The position numbers were made by a program, and so were the translations under genes. A stretch of DNA of 64,000 nt from Bacteroidota bacterium (GTDB lineage: Bacteria; Bacteroidota; Bacteroidia; Chitinophagales; LD1), in contig CANJZE010000004.1 in assembly GCA_947479455.1 (NCBI GenBank), positions 62,001 to 126,000 on the forward strand, given 5' to 3'. This document shows, piece by piece, positions 6,598-56,149 of this stretch. Position 1 is the stretch's first letter, and every line of letters starts with the position of its first letter. Below the pieces are notes generated by a model. It made no database searches, had not been told where the DNA came from, and saw only the letters and a program-made list of their open reading frames with translations.

Positions 6598-6614
6598 GTA
6601 CTGTCTGTTATCAC

Positions 6615-6640
6615 CCTATGAAGCATTCGGGATGAAACAT
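6615..6640. repeat. Solo copy of the GAAGCAT-CGGGATGAAACA repeat
   Basis: 'GAAGCATTCGGGATGAAACA' nearly matches the inverted ends of the 35.4-35.8 kb element ('GAAGCATCGGGATGAAACA' on the minus strand there) and the 'GGCGGGATGAAACA' block inside the ketosynthase gene at 48342-48355. It sits between the terminator at 6548 and the stop of the beta-helix gene. Confidence 0.55.
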
Positions 6641-8562: not shown

Positions 8563-9779
8563 ATCAGTTCTGCTACCACAAATACACTGCCTGCCACCAC
8601 AACCAAATCTTTTTTCGAAGCATTTTGCTTAGCCGCTTTGAATGCCTTCTTTACCGAGGGATAAACTTCCCCTTTCAATTTGAATTTGCCTGCTTGTTGT
8701 TTTAGTTCATCTGCATTTAAGCCGCGTGGTATATCTGCTTTGCAGAAATAATAATTCGCATCTTTAGGAAGTAGCGAGAGAACTTTTGAAATATCTTTAT
8801 CGGCTACCGTTCCAAAAACAAAATGAAGTCTTTCATGTTTCCTATTTCGTATTTCGTATTTCAGTTCTCTAACACCTCCTTCATTATGTGCCGAATCAAA
8901 AACAACAAGCGGCTTCTCTCCTACTATCATCCATCTTCCTATGAACGATGTATTCTTTGCCACATGCTTCAATCCTTTTGCAATTGCTCGATTCGAAACT
9001 TCTACTCCGCTCTTTTTCAAAACATCAATAGCCATTAACGCTGTTGGAATATTCTTCTGCTGATAAATTCCATTCAAATCTGTTTTGAATTTGTGCGGTG
9101 CAATTTCCTTATCGGCAAAATAAATTTTCGCCTGCATTGCTTTTGCTTTAGCCACAAAAACAGGTTTTGTTTCTTTTTGGGTTTCACCAATCACCACAGG
9201 AACATTCTTCTTAATAATTCCCGCTTTTTCAGCGGCAATCTTTTGTAAAGTATTACCCAGAAACTGTTGATGGTCGAAACTGATATTGGTAATAACAGAG
9301 ACTAAAGGCATAATAATATTGGTTGAATCCAATCTGCCTCCCATACCCGTTTCAATCACCGCAAAATCTACGCGTTCTTTTTTAAAATATTCAAACGCCA
9401 TGGCAGTAGTGATTTCAAAAAAAGAAGTATCTATTTTTTTGAACTCTCTTTGATTTCTCTCTACAAATGCCATAACAAACCTTTTGCTGATGAACTTGCC
9501 ATTGATTTTAACTCGCTCACGATAATCTTTGTAATGAGGCGAAACAAACACGCCAACTTTATATCCCTGCTCCTGAAGTATAGAAGCAATGATATGCGTT
9601 ACTGAACCTTTGCCATTTGTTCCTGCTACATGAACACATTTCAAATCCTTTTGAGGATTACCAAGCAAATCGCACAACTGAATAATATTAGTCAAATCGT
9701 TACGATAAGCAGCAGCACCCACCCGCTGAAACATGGGCAGTTGTTCGAGAAGATACTGTAGAGTTGCGCGGTAAGTCAA
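8559..9779 (-). CDS. folC: Bifunctional dihydrofolate synthase / folylpolyglutamate synthase
   Basis: 406 residues with the Mur-ligase-type ATP site 'VAGTNGKGSV' (about 51-60), 'FEITTAMAF', 'IETGMGGRLDSTN' and 'SFDHQQFLG', ending 'VVVAGSVFVVAEL'. It adds glutamate to dihydropteroate and folates using ATP in the cytoplasm. The start codon is TTG at 9779: it yields 'MTYRATLQYLLEQLPMFQR', the family's normal N-terminus, and no nearby ATG fits. It is the last gene of the exbB-exbD-tonB-folC run, 39 nt after tonB. Confidence 0.92.
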   Translation of the reverse strand: MTYRATLQYLLEQLPMFQRVGAAAYRNDLTNIIQLCDLLGNPQKDLKCVHVAGTNGKGSVTHIIASILQEQGYKVGVFVSPHYKDYRERVKINGKFISKRFVMAFVERNQREFKKIDTSFFEITTAMAFEYFKKERVDFAVIETGMGGRLDSTNIIMPLVSVITNISFDHQQFLGNTLQKIAAEKAGIIKKNVPVVIGETQKETKPVFVAKAKAMQAKIYFADKEIAPHKFKTDLNGIYQQKNIPTALMAIDVLKKSGVEVSNRAIAKGLKHVAKNTSFIGRWMIVGEKPLVVFDSAHNEGGVRELKYEIRNRKHERLHFVFGTVADKDISKVLSLLPKDANYYFCKADIPRGLNADELKQQAGKFKLKGEVYPSVKKAFKAAKQNASKKDLVVVAGSVFVVAELI

Positions 9780-10750: not shown

Positions 10751-10779
10751 CTAATTGATAATTGATGATTGATAATTAA
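10751..10779. repeat. ATTGATAATTGATGATTG short tandem AT-rich repeat
   Basis: Heptamer-like iterations of ATTGATA/ATTGATG in the exbD-tonB gap. 'TTCAAATTCTCGAATTTTCA' follows just beyond (10808-10840). Similar A/T/G-rich iterations occur at 49427, 53701 and 54541. Confidence 0.5.
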
Positions 10780-11980: not shown

Positions 11981-12014
11981 ATCATGAAGATGCTTCGACA
12001 AGCTCAGCATGACA
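11981..12014. repeat. CTGAGCTTGTCGAAG repeat, half copy 2
   Basis: 'GATGCTTCGACAAGCTCAGC' plus 'ATGACA' is one arm of the family palindrome. The other arm is reduced to 'ATCATGAA'. It lies in the 255-bp divergent gap between exbB and the cytochrome gene. I see nothing else definite in that gap. Confidence 0.7.
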
Positions 12015-12204
12015 ACATCGACTAAATTATTAACGCTCGCTTCGCGTTTTTTAGTATGGCAAATTTGCTTTTGTTGTGAGTATTAAGCTAGTTCAGTATT
12101 GAACTAAAAACTGTGGATAGTCCTGTTTTGATGCGCGTTGCAACTTTCTGCCCTTTCCCTTTTCATGCAAATAACTAACTTCGATATTCAATTTTTACAA
12201 CGTA

Positions 12205-28338: not shown

Positions 28339-28374
28339 TTGTCATAAGATGCTTCGACAAGTTCAGCATGACAA
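28339..28374. repeat. CTGAGCTTGTCGAAG repeat, shortened copy 3
   Basis: 'TTGTCAT' and 'ATGACAA' ends frame one intact arm ('GATGCTTCGACAAGTTCAGC'). The other arm has lost its middle. It occupies the whole 48-bp space between two convergent genes (peptidase and P450), where it may help end both transcripts. Confidence 0.7.
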
Positions 28375-28380
28375 AATACA

Positions 28381-29709
28381 TTAACTCCTCTCCAACTTCA
28401 TCATCACACCATGCTTTGGTCGCAGGGTAACGAGTGGTTCTAATTCCAATTTGAAATTTTCCGTTAAAGTGAAATTGAATTGAGTGCAGGCAAGGGCTAT
28501 TACAATCTGCATTTCCATCATTGCAAAATTGTTGCCTATGCAAAAGCGTTGCCCGCCACCAAAAGGAAACCAGGCATAGCGGTGAATGTTTTTCATTCGT
28601 TCGGGTGAAAATCTTTCTGGGTCAAACTTCAGCGGGTTCTCCCAATACTTTTCTAAACGATGCACAGCATAAGGCGACATAGCAATACTGTCACCTTTCT
28701 TAATCCGGTAACCGCCTATCACGTCTTCTCTCGAAGCATCGCGGGTAATGCCCCAAACAGGAGGATACAAACGCATAGATTCTTTAATCACCATCGTTGT
28801 ATATTCCAACTTGCTTAAGTTTTCGAAACTCATTTCGTTATCGCCAACCACTTGTTTTACTTCATCAACCACGCGCTGTTTTATTTCGGCATGTTGTGCG
28901 AGTAAAAAGAAAGTGTACGATAAAGCATTAGCTGTAGTTTCGTGACCTGCCAAAAAAATTGTAATCACTTCATCGCGCAGTTGTTCATCGGTCATTCGTT
29001 CGCGCGTATCGGCATCCTCTACTTCCATCAGCATCGTCAGCAAATCGTTGAACTCGGTTTTATTCTTTCTTCTGTCTTCAATAATTTTTTGAATAGTGTC
29101 AAAAAGCAAAGCGCGGTTCTTTTGCATTTTCAAATTGCCTGGCGTTGGAATCCACACCGGCAAACGCAAAATTTTCATCATGCCTTCCATCACTACTACC
29201 AGAGCTTCACTTATCTTTTTGAAATCGCCAACTACTTCGGTACTCATTAAAGTTTGGCTCACAATATCTAAAGTAACGTTGGTCATTTCGGTGTGCATGT
29301 CAATCACCACACCTGTTTTCGTTTCCCAGTTTTTAAGCATGGTCACCGTGCTTTCATTTATCTTCTGCACAAAACTTTGCAAGCGTTGTTTATGAAACAG
29401 CGGCTGAATCAATCTGCGTTGCTTCAACCAAAATTCGCCTTCACTGGTTACTAATCCATTGCCTAGCAAAAATCGCAGTGTTTTGTTGTCGCGACCTTTC
29501 ACATAAATATCAGGGTGCGTAAAAACATGTTCAATATAAGCGGGCTCCGAAATATTTACATAGTGGTAAGGACCAATCATGGCGCGTGAAATGCTCGGGA
29601 ACCTTCGTACGGTTCGGTGAAAATGTCCAAGTAAATCTTTTCTGATATTGGCTTCCTTGTCCCACAAAAGATTAGTTGTAGGTCCCGGTGGAAATTTTGC
29701 GTTTGTCAT
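28381..29709 (-). CDS. Cytochrome P450
   Basis: 442 residues, soluble, with all P450 marks: the oxygen-activation motif 'AGHETTANA' (254-262), the ExxR pair Glu310-Arg313 in 'KESMRLYP', the 'PERFSPERM' region and the haem-ligand loop 'FPFGGGQRFCIGNNFA' with Cys390. The overall form resembles the CYP102/CYP4-like fatty-acid or terpenoid hydroxylases common in bacteria. No ferredoxin or reductase partner is encoded nearby. Its start is 99 nt from the divergent hbd gene. Substrate unknown. Confidence 0.92.
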   Translation of the reverse strand: MTNAKFPPGPTTNLLWDKEANIRKDLLGHFHRTVRRFPSISRAMIGPYHYVNISEPAYIEHVFTHPDIYVKGRDNKTLRFLLGNGLVTSEGEFWLKQRRLIQPLFHKQRLQSFVQKINESTVTMLKNWETKTGVVIDMHTEMTNVTLDIVSQTLMSTEVVGDFKKISEALVVVMEGMMKILRLPVWIPTPGNLKMQKNRALLFDTIQKIIEDRRKNKTEFNDLLTMLMEVEDADTRERMTDEQLRDEVITIFLAGHETTANALSYTFFLLAQHAEIKQRVVDEVKQVVGDNEMSFENLSKLEYTTMVIKESMRLYPPVWGITRDASREDVIGGYRIKKGDSIAMSPYAVHRLEKYWENPLKFDPERFSPERMKNIHRYAWFPFGGGQRFCIGNNFAMMEMQIVIALACTQFNFTLTENFKLELEPLVTLRPKHGVMMKLERS

Positions 29710-35441: not shown

Positions 35442-35814
35442 CGTATGTTTCATCCCGATGCTTCATCGGGAGTGGTCACCGCTTTGTAGAAAAAGTAAAA
35501 ACAAAAAAACACGCAGCCCCTTAGGGGCAATGCCATTTAGTTAAGGATTTATTGCACCGCCCTTCAGGGCGGTGATGAAATTGCAAATAGAAAACAGGGC
35601 TTTAGCCCAATTGATGATTTGGCTAAAGCCACTGTAGTGGTGTTTGTTTTTATCCATCCCATAAATGGGATGGTAATTAATTGCCTTAAAAGCTATTGAC
35701 TGTCGCTTAACTTAATGGCATTGCCCTACGGGACAAATAAAATATTTGCGACTTCATTTGTTTTTCTACAAAGCGGTAGTGGCTCCCGCGAAGAAACGCG
35801 GGATGAAACATACG
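35442..35814. repeat. 373-bp element with inverted ends and mirrored internal palindromes
   Basis: The roughly 500-bp gap 35381-35879 holds no gene. Its core starts 'CGTATGTTTCATCCCG' and ends with the complement. A further matched pair inside is 'ACCGCTTTGTAGAAAAA' (35478-35494) and its exact complement (35761-35777). A third pair is 'GGCAATGCCATTTAGTTAAG' (35526-35545) and a near complement 35706-35725. Between them lie short palindromes: CCGCCCTTCAGGGCGG, GGGCTTTAGCCC, CCACTGTAGTGG, ATCCCATAAATGGGAT. The whole could fold into one long branched stem. No ORF, no transposase. Confidence 0.8.
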
Positions 35815-38884: not shown

Positions 38885-38933
38885 TCATGCTGAGCTTGTC
38901 GAAGCGTACCCTTTGACAAGCTCAGGGTGACAA
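38885..38933. repeat. CTGAGCTTGTCGAAG repeat, full copy 4
   Basis: Arms 'CTGAGCTTGTCGAAG' and 'CTTTGACAAGCTCAG' around a short centre, flanked by TCATG/GGTGA. It lies in the 172-bp gap between gcvP and the GNAT gene. Confidence 0.8.
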
Positions 38934-38949
38934 GCCTTTCTGTACTAAA

Positions 38950-47307: not shown

Positions 47308-48543
47308 CTACACCCGCGAATATATAATGGCTGCATTGCAACCGCCAAATCCGGATGCGGTTTTTAGTGCATGATTTTTATCGCTCTTGGTTACTGCACA
47401 ACTCATGTTTACATTTTCTGAAACACCGAGTGTTTCAAAATTTTTGCTTGGCAATATTACTTCCTGCAATAATGATTGGTATGAGAAAATTGATTCCAGA
47501 ACACCTGCAGCACCAAGTGTGTGTCCGAAATTTCCTTTTAAACTATGCAATGGAATTTGCGAAAGCGATGCGCTTGAAAAGGCTTTTGCTTCCATTTCAT
47601 CATTAAATAAAGTAGCAGTGCCATGCGCTGAAATAAATGATAAATCGTTTACGGTTACCTCACTCTCCTTCATAGCTGATTGAACTGCAAAAGCCAATTC
47701 CAAACCCGTGCGCGATGGTCCCGAAATATGGTTAGCATCATTTGTACTAGCGCCACCGTTCACCAAAATATTTTTAGAGAGAGATTTGTCTGTGGTTAGA
47801 ATAATAGTTGCAGCGCATTCCCCCAAATTAATTCCATCACGATTTTTATCGAACGGCTTACAAGGATTTTTACTCATTGCATTCAACGATTGAAACCCAC
47901 TGATAATAAATTTTGAAAGCACATCGGCTCCACAGATTATCGCATGTTTGTATTTACCCGATTGCAATAACCGTTTTGCAACAACTACAGAAAGCACGCC
48001 TGAAATACAAGCATTCGAAACCACCAGCGGTTTATTTTTAGAACCAAAGTGCTCGGCAATAATCTTTGCCGTATTGAAAAGTGAAACACGGCTTCTTATT
48101 TCTTCATTCACTTCTTTGCCTTCAATCAATTCAATATTCCCTTTTGTGGTAGAAAGAATAAAAAGTGTGTCCGCATCAGAAAGTTTTATTTCGGTTTGAG
48201 CTAAAGCATTTTGAACAGAAGCAATGCAAATACTTTCGAAGCGCGACCTCACCCCCAGCCCCTCTCCGAAGGAGAGGGGAGAAACAGCCACCTCATCCGT
48301 CCCGCTTGAAACAAGCGGGACACCTTCTCCGTCCCGCGTAAGGCGGGATGAAACAAAAGGAGAAGGAAAAGTCAGCCATTCTTCTTTAGTAAACATTGAA
48401 GCATAGAAAGGTTCTGGTGAAAGTGAGCCATCTGTAATTTGACGGATAGCCGACAAGCCGTTCTTTACCTTCTCGAAATTTTCCTGTGTGGTAATTCCGA
48501 GCGGAGAAAAAATATTATCGGCAGCTATGTAAACAGCGTTCAT
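47308..48543 (-). CDS. Beta-ketoacyl synthase with repeat-derived insertion
   Basis: 411 residues of the KAS I/II fold with an intact triad: Cys179 in 'VVSNACISGVLS', His307 in 'FISAHGTAT', His341 in 'KGNFGHTLGAAG'. It should condense malonyl-ACP with the growing chain. Residues about 61-100 are an extra segment coded by three stacked palindromes (48245-48367) with no counterpart in the family. It breaks the fold between the N-terminal 'EEWLTF' and 'FESICIASVQNAL'. Start overlaps the thioesterase stop by 1 nt. Relative to the ketosynthase at 50845 it is shorter in conserved blocks and may act as chain-length partner. Confidence 0.85.
   Translation of the reverse strand: MNAVYIAADNIFSPLGITTQENFEKVKNGLSAIRQITDGSLSPEPFYASMFTKEEWLTFPSPFVSSRLTRDGEGVPLVSSGTDEVAVSPLSFGEGLGVRSRFESICIASVQNALAQTEIKLSDADTLFILSTTKGNIELIEGKEVNEEIRSRVSLFNTAKIIAEHFGSKNKPLVVSNACISGVLSVVVAKRLLQSGKYKHAIICGADVLSKFIISGFQSLNAMSKNPCKPFDKNRDGINLGECAATIILTTDKSLSKNILVNGGASTNDANHISGPSRTGLELAFAVQSAMKESEVTVNDLSFISAHGTATLFNDEMEAKAFSSASLSQIPLHSLKGNFGHTLGAAGVLESIFSYQSLLQEVILPSKNFETLGVSENVNMSCAVTKSDKNHALKTASGFGGCNAAIIYSRV
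48245..48367. repeat. Palindrome cluster inserted in frame in a ketosynthase gene
   Basis: Three consecutive palindromes: CCCCTCTCC-GAA-GGAGAGGGG (48259-48279), GTCCCGCTTG-AAA-CAAGCGGGAC (48299-48321) and GTCCCGCGTAAGGCGGGAT (48331-48349). The first belongs to the common 'CACCCCCAGCCCCTCTCC' family; the last ends in 'GGCGGGATGAAACA', also found at 6627 and in the 35.4-35.8 kb element. About 123 bp, a multiple of three. Confidence 0.85.
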
Positions 48544-49426: not shown

Positions 49427-49459
49427 GATTGAAGATTGAAAATTGAAGATTGAAAATTA
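49427..49459. repeat. ATTGAAGATTGAAAATTGAAG tandem low-complexity repeat
   Basis: About four head-to-tail ATTGAAR/ATTGAAA units just upstream of the dehydratase start codon. Related strings lie at 53701-53734 and 54541-54559 in other gaps of the same cluster, and at 10751. Confidence 0.6.
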
Positions 49460-50404: not shown

Positions 50405-50653
50405 TTACGCTGCCGTCCTTTTGCTGATAACGTAATCGTATAAATTTTGGAAAGTGAGAATGCTCGAAAAGTCTTCCTGCTTTACTTTTATACCGAAGTT
50501 ACCTTCAATAATTACAACAAGGTCAACGTAGTCCAATGAATCGAGTTCGAGCGTTTCTTTCAAGGTTGCATCGGGTGTAATCGTAGCTCCATCCACTTCA
50601 AATTCTTCTACCAAAAATTCGTTGATTTTAGAAATCATTTCTTCGTTGCTCAT
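50405..50653 (-). CDS. Acyl carrier protein
   Basis: 82 residues, acidic, four-helix ACP. The phosphopantetheine site is Ser39 in 'LELDSLDYVDLVV'. It carries the growing polyene between the two ketosynthases, FabG and dehydratase of the cluster. A gap of 191 bp separates it from the ketosynthase upstream. That gap contains a 25-bp direct repeat ('TGATAATTCAAATTC' at 50692 and 50752) and no gene. Confidence 0.93.
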   Translation of the reverse strand: MSNEEMISKINEFLVEEFEVDGATITPDATLKETLELDSLDYVDLVVIIEGNFGIKVKQEDFSSILTFQNLYDYVISKRTAA

Positions 50654-54559: not shown

Positions 54560-54613
54560 GTAATATTGAAATACAGAGTGGCTGTTTAAATTTTAAATAT
54601 TACATCTTAATTA

Positions 54614-56149
54614 TTAAATCACACCAGGGTGATTAGTCTTCAAAAACTCTCTGATTGTTTTTAATTCTTTGAACTTCGGAACATCACCTTGAATTTTCGA
54701 AGAGCATTTTCTTATGCCATCATAAAATTCTTTCGGCTTCACCGAAAGTGAATTTCCTTTATCCAAGTAATCAACCGCTTCCGCCACTGCCAATGAATGC
54801 ACCGCCAAAACTTCGAACGTATTTTCAATAACACGAGCCGCCATCAATGCAGCATTGCTTCCCATACTCACTAAATCCTGATTATCGTTATTACTTGGAA
54901 TGCTGTGCACGTAAACAGGATTTGAAAGTGTTTGATTTTCGGCCACCGTTGAAGTAGCCGTGTATTGAATTCCCTGAATACCGAAGTTCAAACCCACAGT
55001 TCCTTTATTAATGAATGCAGGAAGTTTGCCGTTGAGTTTATCGTTGAGCAAATAATTCAATTGTCGGTCAGCCAGCATCGAAAGTTTAGTAATAGCAATT
55101 TTTAATTTATCCATTTCGAGGGCTACATAATCACCATGAAAATTTCCACCGTGGTAAACATTCTTAATCTCATCATCAATCACTGGATTGTCGCTAACAG
55201 AATTTAATTCGTCAACTAAAATCTTTTCAGCAAACGCAATGGTATCATAGATAGGTCCTATAATTTGCGGCATACAACGCAGCGAGTAATATTCTTGTAC
55301 CTTATCTTTAAAATGTGTATCGGGCGTATCGGTATACAAATGCTCCTGACGGTTGCGCATCAGTTTGCTTGATGAAACAATTTTGCGCATAGCATCAGCC
55401 ACTATATTTTGCCCCGCATGAAGTTTTACCTGATTAAGCGGTGCCGAGATATGGTCATCAAACGCTTCAAAAATTTCATTGATAGTAATCGAAATTAAAG
55501 TAGACCAGTTCAACAGTTTTTTAGCAGCTAACAAATTCACTAAACCAATTCCGGTCATGCACGAAGTGCCGTTCATCAATCCCAAACCTTCGCGCAAGCG
55601 AATGGCAAAAGGAGTAAGATTATGTTTATGCAGAACTTCGGTAGCGTCATAAATCTTTCCTTCGTGCCAAATTTCTCCTTCGCCAATAATTGCGAGACCC
55701 ATGTGTGCTAACTGCACTAAATCTCCACTGGCTCCTACTCCACCGTGCTCATATATCACAGGAATTAAATCCTGATTAATCATCTCTTTAATCAGAATCA
55801 ATAAATCGGGATGCACTCCGCTTTTGCATTGAGCAAATGTGTTGAGTCGGTCAATCAGCATCGCCTTGGCATAAATAACTTCAATAGGCTTTCCTGAACC
55901 CGAAGCATGACTGCGAATCAAATTGTATTGAAGGGTGAGGCGCTCGCTGTACGCAATTTTAAACTGCGCCATTGGGCCAAAGCCCGTATTGATACCATAA
56001 ATAACTTTGTTGGAAGCAAAGTCTTTGAGGAAATGAAAATTGTTATCTGCCTTTTTAAGCAAAGCAGCACTCAATTCAATTTTTTCTCCGCTGTAAATGA
56101 TTTTTGAAATATCATCCAGCGTAAGTTGTTTTTCGCCTACACCAATCAT
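54614..56149 (-). CDS. Aromatic amino acid ammonia lyase, tyrosine ammonia lyase-like
   Basis: 511 residues of the HAL/PAL/TAL family. The MIO cofactor forms from Ala140-Ser141-Gly142 in 'HGGVGASGDLVQLAHMG'. The catalytic Tyr51 lies in 'YGINTGFGPMAQFK'. The selectivity stretch 'YNLIRSHASGSGKP' (Ser80-His81) matches what I remember of Flavobacterium johnsoniae TAL ('LIRSHSSGTGKP'), which makes 4-coumarate from tyrosine, and 'VYHGGNFHGDYVALEMDK' is shared too. It should provide the aryl starter of the pigment. First gene of the minus-strand cluster, with a candidate promoter 64 nt upstream. Histidine ammonia lyase is the main alternative. Confidence 0.85.
   Translation of the reverse strand: MIGVGEKQLTLDDISKIIYSGEKIELSAALLKKADNNFHFLKDFASNKVIYGINTGFGPMAQFKIAYSERLTLQYNLIRSHASGSGKPIEVIYAKAMLIDRLNTFAQCKSGVHPDLLILIKEMINQDLIPVIYEHGGVGASGDLVQLAHMGLAIIGEGEIWHEGKIYDATEVLHKHNLTPFAIRLREGLGLMNGTSCMTGIGLVNLLAAKKLLNWSTLISITINEIFEAFDDHISAPLNQVKLHAGQNIVADAMRKIVSSSKLMRNRQEHLYTDTPDTHFKDKVQEYYSLRCMPQIIGPIYDTIAFAEKILVDELNSVSDNPVIDDEIKNVYHGGNFHGDYVALEMDKLKIAITKLSMLADRQLNYLLNDKLNGKLPAFINKGTVGLNFGIQGIQYTATSTVAENQTLSNPVYVHSIPSNNDNQDLVSMGSNAALMAARVIENTFEVLAVHSLAVAEAVDYLDKGNSLSVKPKEFYDGIRKCSSKIQGDVPKFKELKTIREFLKTNHPGVI

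Follow-up and report, generated by a model that had tools for sequence, protein, structure and literature searches.

Palindromic repeats that encode part of a protein are known chiefly from alphaproteobacteria that live inside cells and have reduced genomes. A ketosynthase gene in the window analysed here, a stretch of 64,000 nt from a Bacteroidota genome, contains hairpin-forming repeats within its reading frame, and the locus raises the question of how such repeats entered a conserved enzyme and whether the gene has remained intact with them.

The ketosynthase gene and its repeat-derived segment

The host gene, encoding a KAS II-like beta-ketoacyl-ACP synthase (KS), lies at 47308 to 48543 on the minus strand as an ORF of 411 codons with matches to Pfam families PF00109 and PF02801. 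Its AlphaFold model has a mean pLDDT of 89.8 and matches KAS II structures of the PDB with Z of about 53 (1oxh_A, Z 53.5, rmsd 1.9 across 376 residues), and Cys179, His307 and His341 show no variation in an alignment of 40 KS proteins; as modelled, the host protein has the KAS fold together with the Cys-His-His triad. An NCBIfam scan of the protein gave no model above its cut-off, and a placement of the KS in a flexirubin cluster was not obtained. The reading frame is free of stops through the whole repeat stretch. An ACP gene is located nearby, at 50405-50653.

This repeat-derived stretch covers 121 nt at 48246 to 48366 on the minus strand, as do all of its parts, and corresponds to codons 60 to 100, with a net addition of 117 nt or 39 codons relative to the closest relative, L036, whose protein has 372 residues. 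Read in the direction of the gene, it begins with an outer hairpin, A (48323 to 48366), recognized by DNA folding and sequence reading, whose arms CCTTCTCC and GGAGAAGG hold nested in their loop an inner 24-nt unit (48332 to 48355) made of the head TGTTTCA and the hairpin TCCCGC-CTTAC-GCGGGA. A second hairpin, TCCCGCTTGTTTCAAGCGGGA (48300 to 48320), has the same stem as the inner unit and is without the TGTTTCA head. It is followed by a linking stretch, CGGATGAGGTGGCTGTTTCT (48280 to 48299), to which the ends GGTGGCTGTT and GGCTGTTTCT beside other copies are similar, and then by the third unit, CCCCTCTCCTTCGGAGAGGGG with the tail CTGGGGGTGAGGT (together 48246 to 48279), in which outer hairpin B, CCCCTCTCC-TTC-GGAGAGGGG, takes up 48259 to 48279 and the tail of this outer element 48246 to 48258; tails of the same kind are found in L007, L008 and L024. 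In total, four hairpins make up the composite, two of them outer ones and two with the stem TCCCG/CGGGA, of which one is nested inside an outer hairpin. The folding of 48235 to 48380 beats that of 200/200 dinucleotide shuffles, with z of -5.1 as DNA and -3.6 as RNA. The 24-nt inner unit recurs identically in PnuC (L009), at GalE (L010) and in the genome G015, which has its own in-frame copy in a gene (L212) that we take, from reading its sequence, to be cyclase-like.

The original prediction, made from the letters alone, had described palindromic repeats inserted in frame and adding about 40 residues to a ketosynthase with an open frame and its catalytic Cys, His and His kept, and all of this is borne out by the open 411-codon frame, the 121-nt stretch with its net 39 codons and the 40-protein alignment. 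Its count of three adjacent hairpins stands for the three adjacent units, but the first of these is double, its outer arms enclosing the 24-nt unit.

The segment is a gain of this lineage. It is missing from 29/29 homologues in an alignment of the best KS loci besides its own, and from 44/44 aligned homologues covering the site in a second set taken from named genomes; the two sets overlap, having contigs in common. In the second set, 45 of 51 loci were aligned (L108, L109 and L112 to L115 were left out), and for the 45th, L103, the match used begins downstream of the insert site. Homologues from many genera with the same segment, which the original prediction had named as the observation to look for against itself, are thus absent among those aligned. 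The closest KS relative, that of G004 (L036), shares 92% identity with this gene on either side of the insert and has an empty site, the linker there measuring 30 nt versus 147 nt here and the whole protein 372 versus 411 residues. Across the 44 homologues, the site holds 6 to 23 residues versus 46 here, so that the insert falls in a naturally length-variable loop. The sequence beside the insert differs between relatives, as it does beside the inserts of PnuC and aspartokinase, and because of this the junctions of the three composites can be placed only approximately.

Dispersal and stepwise insertion of the elements

The inner pattern TGTTTCATCCCG has 51 copies in this genome, compared with one for the reversed pattern used as control, and CTCTNCTTCNGAGAG has 10 copies versus 0 for its control. 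Many copies sit between ORFs, and 36 of the 51 inner copies were counted as non-genic by ORFs, in agreement with the predicted occurrence of the hairpin sequences outside genes. Within the window, inner-element copies between ORFs lie at 35446 to 35471 on the plus strand (26 nt, not a multiple of three), at 35784 to 35810 on the minus strand (27 nt) and at 6613 to 6639 on the minus strand, the last with a degenerate second arm. Most inner copies are found in surroundings that were already repetitive, namely within an outer hairpin's loop or in a run of heptanucleotides, and some inner copies have the TGTTTCA motif again in their own loops. Covariation in the stem is not convincing beyond the portion that the search pattern fixes: among the 24 copies of 27 nt, which represent 18 distinct sequences, two of the stem pairs have changed on both sides, and 28/500 shuffles reach the score. 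The head and left arm are constant in the aligned copies because the pattern used for the search includes them. A further palindromic repeat, CTGAGCTTGTCGAAG / CTTCGACAAGCTCAG, was noticed in whole or half copies at 1189-1243, 11987-12025, 28346-28384 and 38885-38939 of the window, and a period of 7, seen in four arrays, is the commonest among the short tandem arrays listed for the window (8838-8862, 10752-10777, 49427-49458 and 54586-54619).

In a survey of 99 genomes, consisting of this one, 17 other genus members and 81 genomes from outside the genus, TGTTTCATCCCG was found in 2 to 43 copies in 11/17 of the other genus members and in none of the remaining 6, and each of the 81 genomes outside the genus had at most three copies, a level also reached by the backwards control. 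The outer core CTCTCCTTCGGAGAG has eight exact copies of its 15-mer here and is present in 10/17 other genus members and in 7/7 genomes sampled from another genus in the family (1 to 32 copies); elsewhere it occurs only in G057 (2 copies), and its control gave 0 in all 99 genomes. From these distributions, the inner element appears to belong to the genus and the outer one to be older or more widespread.

Long reading frames contain 15 of the 51 inner copies, 10 in their interior and 5 at their ends, and 8 of the 15 are flanked on both sides by the same protein as judged by Pfam or homologues. Five of these eight copies lie inside one Pfam domain, namely those in KS, PnuC (L009), an alpha/beta hydrolase (L118), a polysaccharide deacetylase (L129) and a GDSL lipase (L138), while those in DNA polymerase I (PolA, L018), NAD synthase (NadE, L134) and the 2-oxoacid dehydrogenase E2 (L116) lie between domains. 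Copies at protein ends were found in GalE (L010), UvrA (L014, near the start of the frame), a MiaB-like protein (L022), a family 3 glycosidase (L126) and an asparagine synthase (L030), and the four N-terminal ones among these five may lie upstream of the real start. For L016 and L140, the genic status was assigned by the open frame alone, and L016 has no Pfam or NCBIfam match. The outer element by itself occurs in an aspartokinase (L007), a TonB receptor (L008), a transketolase C domain (L017) and before a Por secretion tail (L015). As a separate observation, at GalE (L010, 477-1586) the element sits at the N-terminus, and the stretch from there to the conserved nucleotide-binding motif contains no Met codon, so that the GalE start codon may have been replaced.

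All 15 genic inner copies measure 24 nt (5 copies) or 27 nt (10 copies), whereas the 36 non-genic ones comprise 22 with a length divisible by three, 13 with another length and one without a clear second arm, L029 (21 nt, with an open frame, upstream of a start codon) being counted among the non-genic. The contrast of 15/15 with 22/35 measurable others gives a one-sided Fisher p of 0.004, which becomes 0.020 when the genic set is restricted to the 10 interior copies and 0.034 when the 5 terminal ones are moved to the others; the test is partly circular because the genic copies were picked by their open frame. Against circularity, 7 of the 13 copies with a length not divisible by three lie between ORFs of opposite strands (L133, one of these, is also contained in an ORF of 188 codons) and 5 are flanked by same-strand genes of different Pfam families, the remaining copy, L132, being outside both of these flanking-gene checks. 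The simplest reading of these lengths would be that the standard unit is 27 nt and that genic copies are held to multiples of three, while others decay freely.

In-frame insertion is demonstrated against relatives for KS, NadE, PnuC and aspartokinase. The NadE gene of this genome contains an additional stretch of exactly 27 nt flanked by AATCATC heptamers, the palindrome being present in 1/18 genus genomes, and the two closest relatives, G004 (93% identical) and G015 (92%), have the heptamer run without the 27 nt. No target-site duplication was seen at NadE, the one site examined in this respect with an empty homologue; the 7-nt repeats flanking several copies were considered as target duplications and rejected, as at NadE they are heptanucleotide runs that existed beforehand. 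The PnuC alignment comprises ten sequences including its own (partial matches in G002, G005 and G012 were left out, and five genomes had no match): the gene is empty in G004, G010, G001 and G016, contains only the outer element in G015, and contains the outer element with the 24-nt inner unit in its loop in this genome, and that of G017 has a different outer-like insert. As read from these alignments, insertion at NadE and PnuC is stepwise between relatives, and PnuC gives the order of nesting. Aspartokinase has the outer element here and in 0/15 aligned relatives, a fragment (L229) having been left out of the alignment. Nonsynonymous changes make up 17/44 of those on this lineage versus 4/22 in the relative for aspartokinase, and 12/19 versus 3/6 for PnuC, counts that would allow some relaxation in these genes. 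The NadE linker (L148 to L165) also displays, at the same place in several genus members, tandem heptamers of differing sequence (AATCATC, AAGTCCG and GCGGATT types), a pattern that looks as if heptamers had been gained repeatedly in coding DNA.

Origin of the insert and state of the enzyme

We propose that a composite of small non-autonomous mobile palindromes very probably entered the KS gene after this lineage had diverged from the closest relative sequenced. The outer hairpins (CCTCTCC..GGAGAGG, in many cases with the tail GGGGTGAGGT) would have spread through the genome, and the inner hairpins of 24 to 27 nt (TGTTTCA-TCCCG..CGGGA) would have spread too, mostly into DNA that was already repetitive, the units being moved by a putative trans-acting or replication-based process. 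The composite would then have landed in a KS loop of variable length, with a stop-free frame and a net length divisible by three. The KS would thereby have acquired a loop of some 40 residues, probably disordered, that would be translated and present in the working enzyme, while purifying selection continued, and copies at intolerant sites or in intolerant frames would have been removed by selection.

As regards the mover, it is possible, if doubtful, that the units are of REP type and that a Y1 (RAYT/TnpA-REP-like) transposase moves them in trans, with the hairpin and the TGTTTCA head as its substrate, a route proposed for REPs. The short unpaired head beside the stem resembles the REP layout, with the head and left arm fixed by the search pattern, and Y1_Tnp matches occur in 18/18 genus genomes, 17 of them above the Pfam cut-off. 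However, no element copy lies within about 1.5 kb to either side of the three Y1 transposase genes found in this genome, and the 28 further Y1 loci of the genus gave a full inner copy in one (L192), an outer hairpin in one (L176), a partial inner copy of 11 bases in one and a near match in one; moreover, Y1 genes are also present where the inner 12-mer is lacking, for example in G007, G009 and G016, and the units have no GTAG or CGTC tag. A resident RAYT as the mover is therefore unsupported, with no elements by the three Y1_Tnp genes of this genome. Palindromes of other kinds were noticed at Y1 transposase loci: L145 has its own hairpin pairs at 1942-2004 and 2249-2318 (CCACTGGCTAAAGCCAGTGG and others), unlike the studied element, and a perfect 56-nt palindrome with 28-nt arms (L146, 720-775) flanks another Y1 transposase gene.

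It is unlikely that the units arose without any transposition, through local copying by template switching or slippage at hairpins and heptanucleotide repeats in replication and a subsequent spread by recombination. The insertion sites that were mostly repetitive beforehand, the NadE gain without target duplication and the TGTTTCA motif recurring in the loops of some copies are all consistent with such copying, but the identical 24-nt unit at unlinked loci in two genomes needs copying between distant places.

The predicted structure bears on what the insert could mean for the enzyme. Runs of at least three residues with pLDDT below 50 in the KS model, 65-69 and 71-94, fall within the insert, which is the low-confidence part of an otherwise confident KAS model; together with the 6 to 23 residues of the homologues versus 46 here, this fits the claim that the insert is tolerated because it lies in a surface loop. 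In a profile alignment, this loop is matched by the KEARKM stretch of FabF from Listeria and Bacillus, and Lys65, Arg68 and Lys69 of E. coli FabF presumably fall in this stretch. These three residues dock AcpP (PMC7138838). The insert would sit, by this alignment, in a loop of variable length close to the part of FabF that docks ACP. It is nevertheless very improbable that the insert was selected for an effect on the enzyme, with the new loop by the ACP-docking surface altering the carrier protein that the KS accepts. The position at the region contacting AcpP and the variable loop length across the family would suit such a change of partner; against it, the same repeats occur in unrelated proteins (NadE, PolA, PnuC, aspartokinase and polysaccharide deacetylase), the model assigns very low confidence to the insert, a single genome among the aligned ones has it, and the basic stretch of the FabF type is absent from the KS homologues without an insert.

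It is also very improbable that the KS gene is decaying and the insert is a first step toward a pseudogene. The net 39 foreign codons lie within a conserved domain, and the KS gene can be missing in the genus, with the best match in G002, G003, G005, G013, G014 and G015 being paralogue-like (E from 3e-39 to 7e-11) and G012 having none, although some of these assemblies are incomplete. On the other side, the gene has no stop or frameshift and keeps its catalytic residues, and its dN/dS versus the closest relative is 0.073, the same as the 0.073 of that relative versus the outgroup. Upstream of the insert dN is 0.082 and dS 0.455 (dN/dS about 0.18), and downstream dN is 0.038 and dS 0.884 (about 0.04). 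Of the changes placed on this branch 19 are synonymous and 13 nonsynonymous, versus 6 and 7 in its sister, and there is no nonsynonymous excess here (13/32 versus 7/13). The gene appears to be under purifying selection and does not look like a pseudogene, although much of the divergence may predate the insertion, and because most of it may be older, the dN/dS says little about the time since insertion. The pseudogene reading, the other observation that the original prediction had named against itself, was dropped, with frame, catalytic residues and dN/dS all against it. An assembly artefact, by which repeats were misjoined into the genes of a draft genome, is highly improbable: this genome consists of 70 contigs, the named relatives are mostly MAGs and short repeats can confuse assemblers, but PnuC and NadE have consistent intermediate states across independent genomes, the separate genome G015 has an in-frame copy of its own and the frames are kept.

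Relation to known palindromic repeats

A search of open-licence PMC papers returned nothing on in-frame palindromic repeats in Bacteroidota. In a wider picture, plausible although we do not quite favor it, one Bacteroidota genus might have layered mobile palindromes, with the smallest unit kept at 24 or 27 nt in genes as a cassette of 8 to 9 codons, outer hairpins and heptanucleotide runs acting as landing pads, and up to 15 frames of one genome carrying the inner cassette and four more the outer element alone. If true, this would be a living case, beyond the intracellular alphaproteobacteria, in which the conversion of repeat DNA into protein sequence can be followed. The empty, half-filled and filled sites of close relatives form an ordered series for the entry of repeat DNA into proteins, and a Bacteroidota series of this kind makes tolerance versus function testable. 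For annotators, stretches such as SPLSFGEGLGVR, SSRxxRDET and GMKQ in these genomes are repeat-derived and not domain evolution.

In-frame palindromes are established in Rickettsia (PMC3733652), and Wolbachia palindromic elements lie in frame in addA, addB and priA, the products of which seem still functional (PMC4224334). Likeness to these elements (RPE/WPE) lies in behaviour, in palindromes in frame within genes whose products are seemingly functional, and two features of the protein-coding palindromic kind are found here, in-frame copies in unrelated genes and copies outside genes. The original prediction of a Bacteroidota analogue of the Rickettsia elements holds insofar as in-frame repeats occur in several unrelated genes, but the phenomenon is not confined to Rickettsia (PMC3733652). 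The present case differs from RPE/WPE in belonging to another phylum and to a genome of 3.8 Mb instead of a reduced intracellular one, in an inner unit of only 24 to 27 nt, and in units nested in outer hairpins and heptanucleotide runs.

PMC3733652 reports intragenic REPs from several phyla and names UvrA and DNA polymerase I among the affected genes. The GTAG/CGTC REPs resemble the present elements as short stem-loops that are mostly intergenic and in some cases within ORFs, and PolA and UvrA are hit in both (PMC3733652). The PolA gene (L018) and the UvrA frame (L014) of this genome are thus repair genes that intragenic REPs also hit in other bacteria. As described in the same source, CGTC REP families, whose tag may also read TGTC or CCTC, have AT pairs at the base of a stem of 8 to 9 bp (PMC3733652), whereas the stem here is TCCCG/CGGGA with T-A and C-G as its first pairs, and most of the studied copies are headed by TGTTTCA. 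GTAG, which in GTAG REPs marks one end of the stem, or its complement occurs within 8 nt of the unit in at most 3/51 contexts, on varying sides, and CGTC or its complement in 1/51, counts that cover the copies collected by the TGTTTCA-containing pattern and not headless copies; at the headless second KS hairpin, the plus strand reads CGTCCCGC overlapping the stem, but there are no AT pairs at the base. In comparison with REPs that have a resident RAYT, 0/3 Y1_Tnp genes are flanked by the repeat here.

Bacterial MITEs are likewise non-autonomous, dispersed and hairpin-forming, and measure 70-300 bp (PMC3733652). The units here are far shorter, with no target duplication at the one clean junction (NadE) and no parent IS found. 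Cyanobacterial STRR are heptanucleotide tandem runs dispersed in the genome, as are those here, some of which differ in hosting the inner palindrome and in lying in the coding DNA of the NadE linker. Without the GTAG or CGTC tags of REPs, the KS case is, by analogy of behaviour, of the same kind as the palindromic elements of Rickettsia and Wolbachia and the intragenic REPs.
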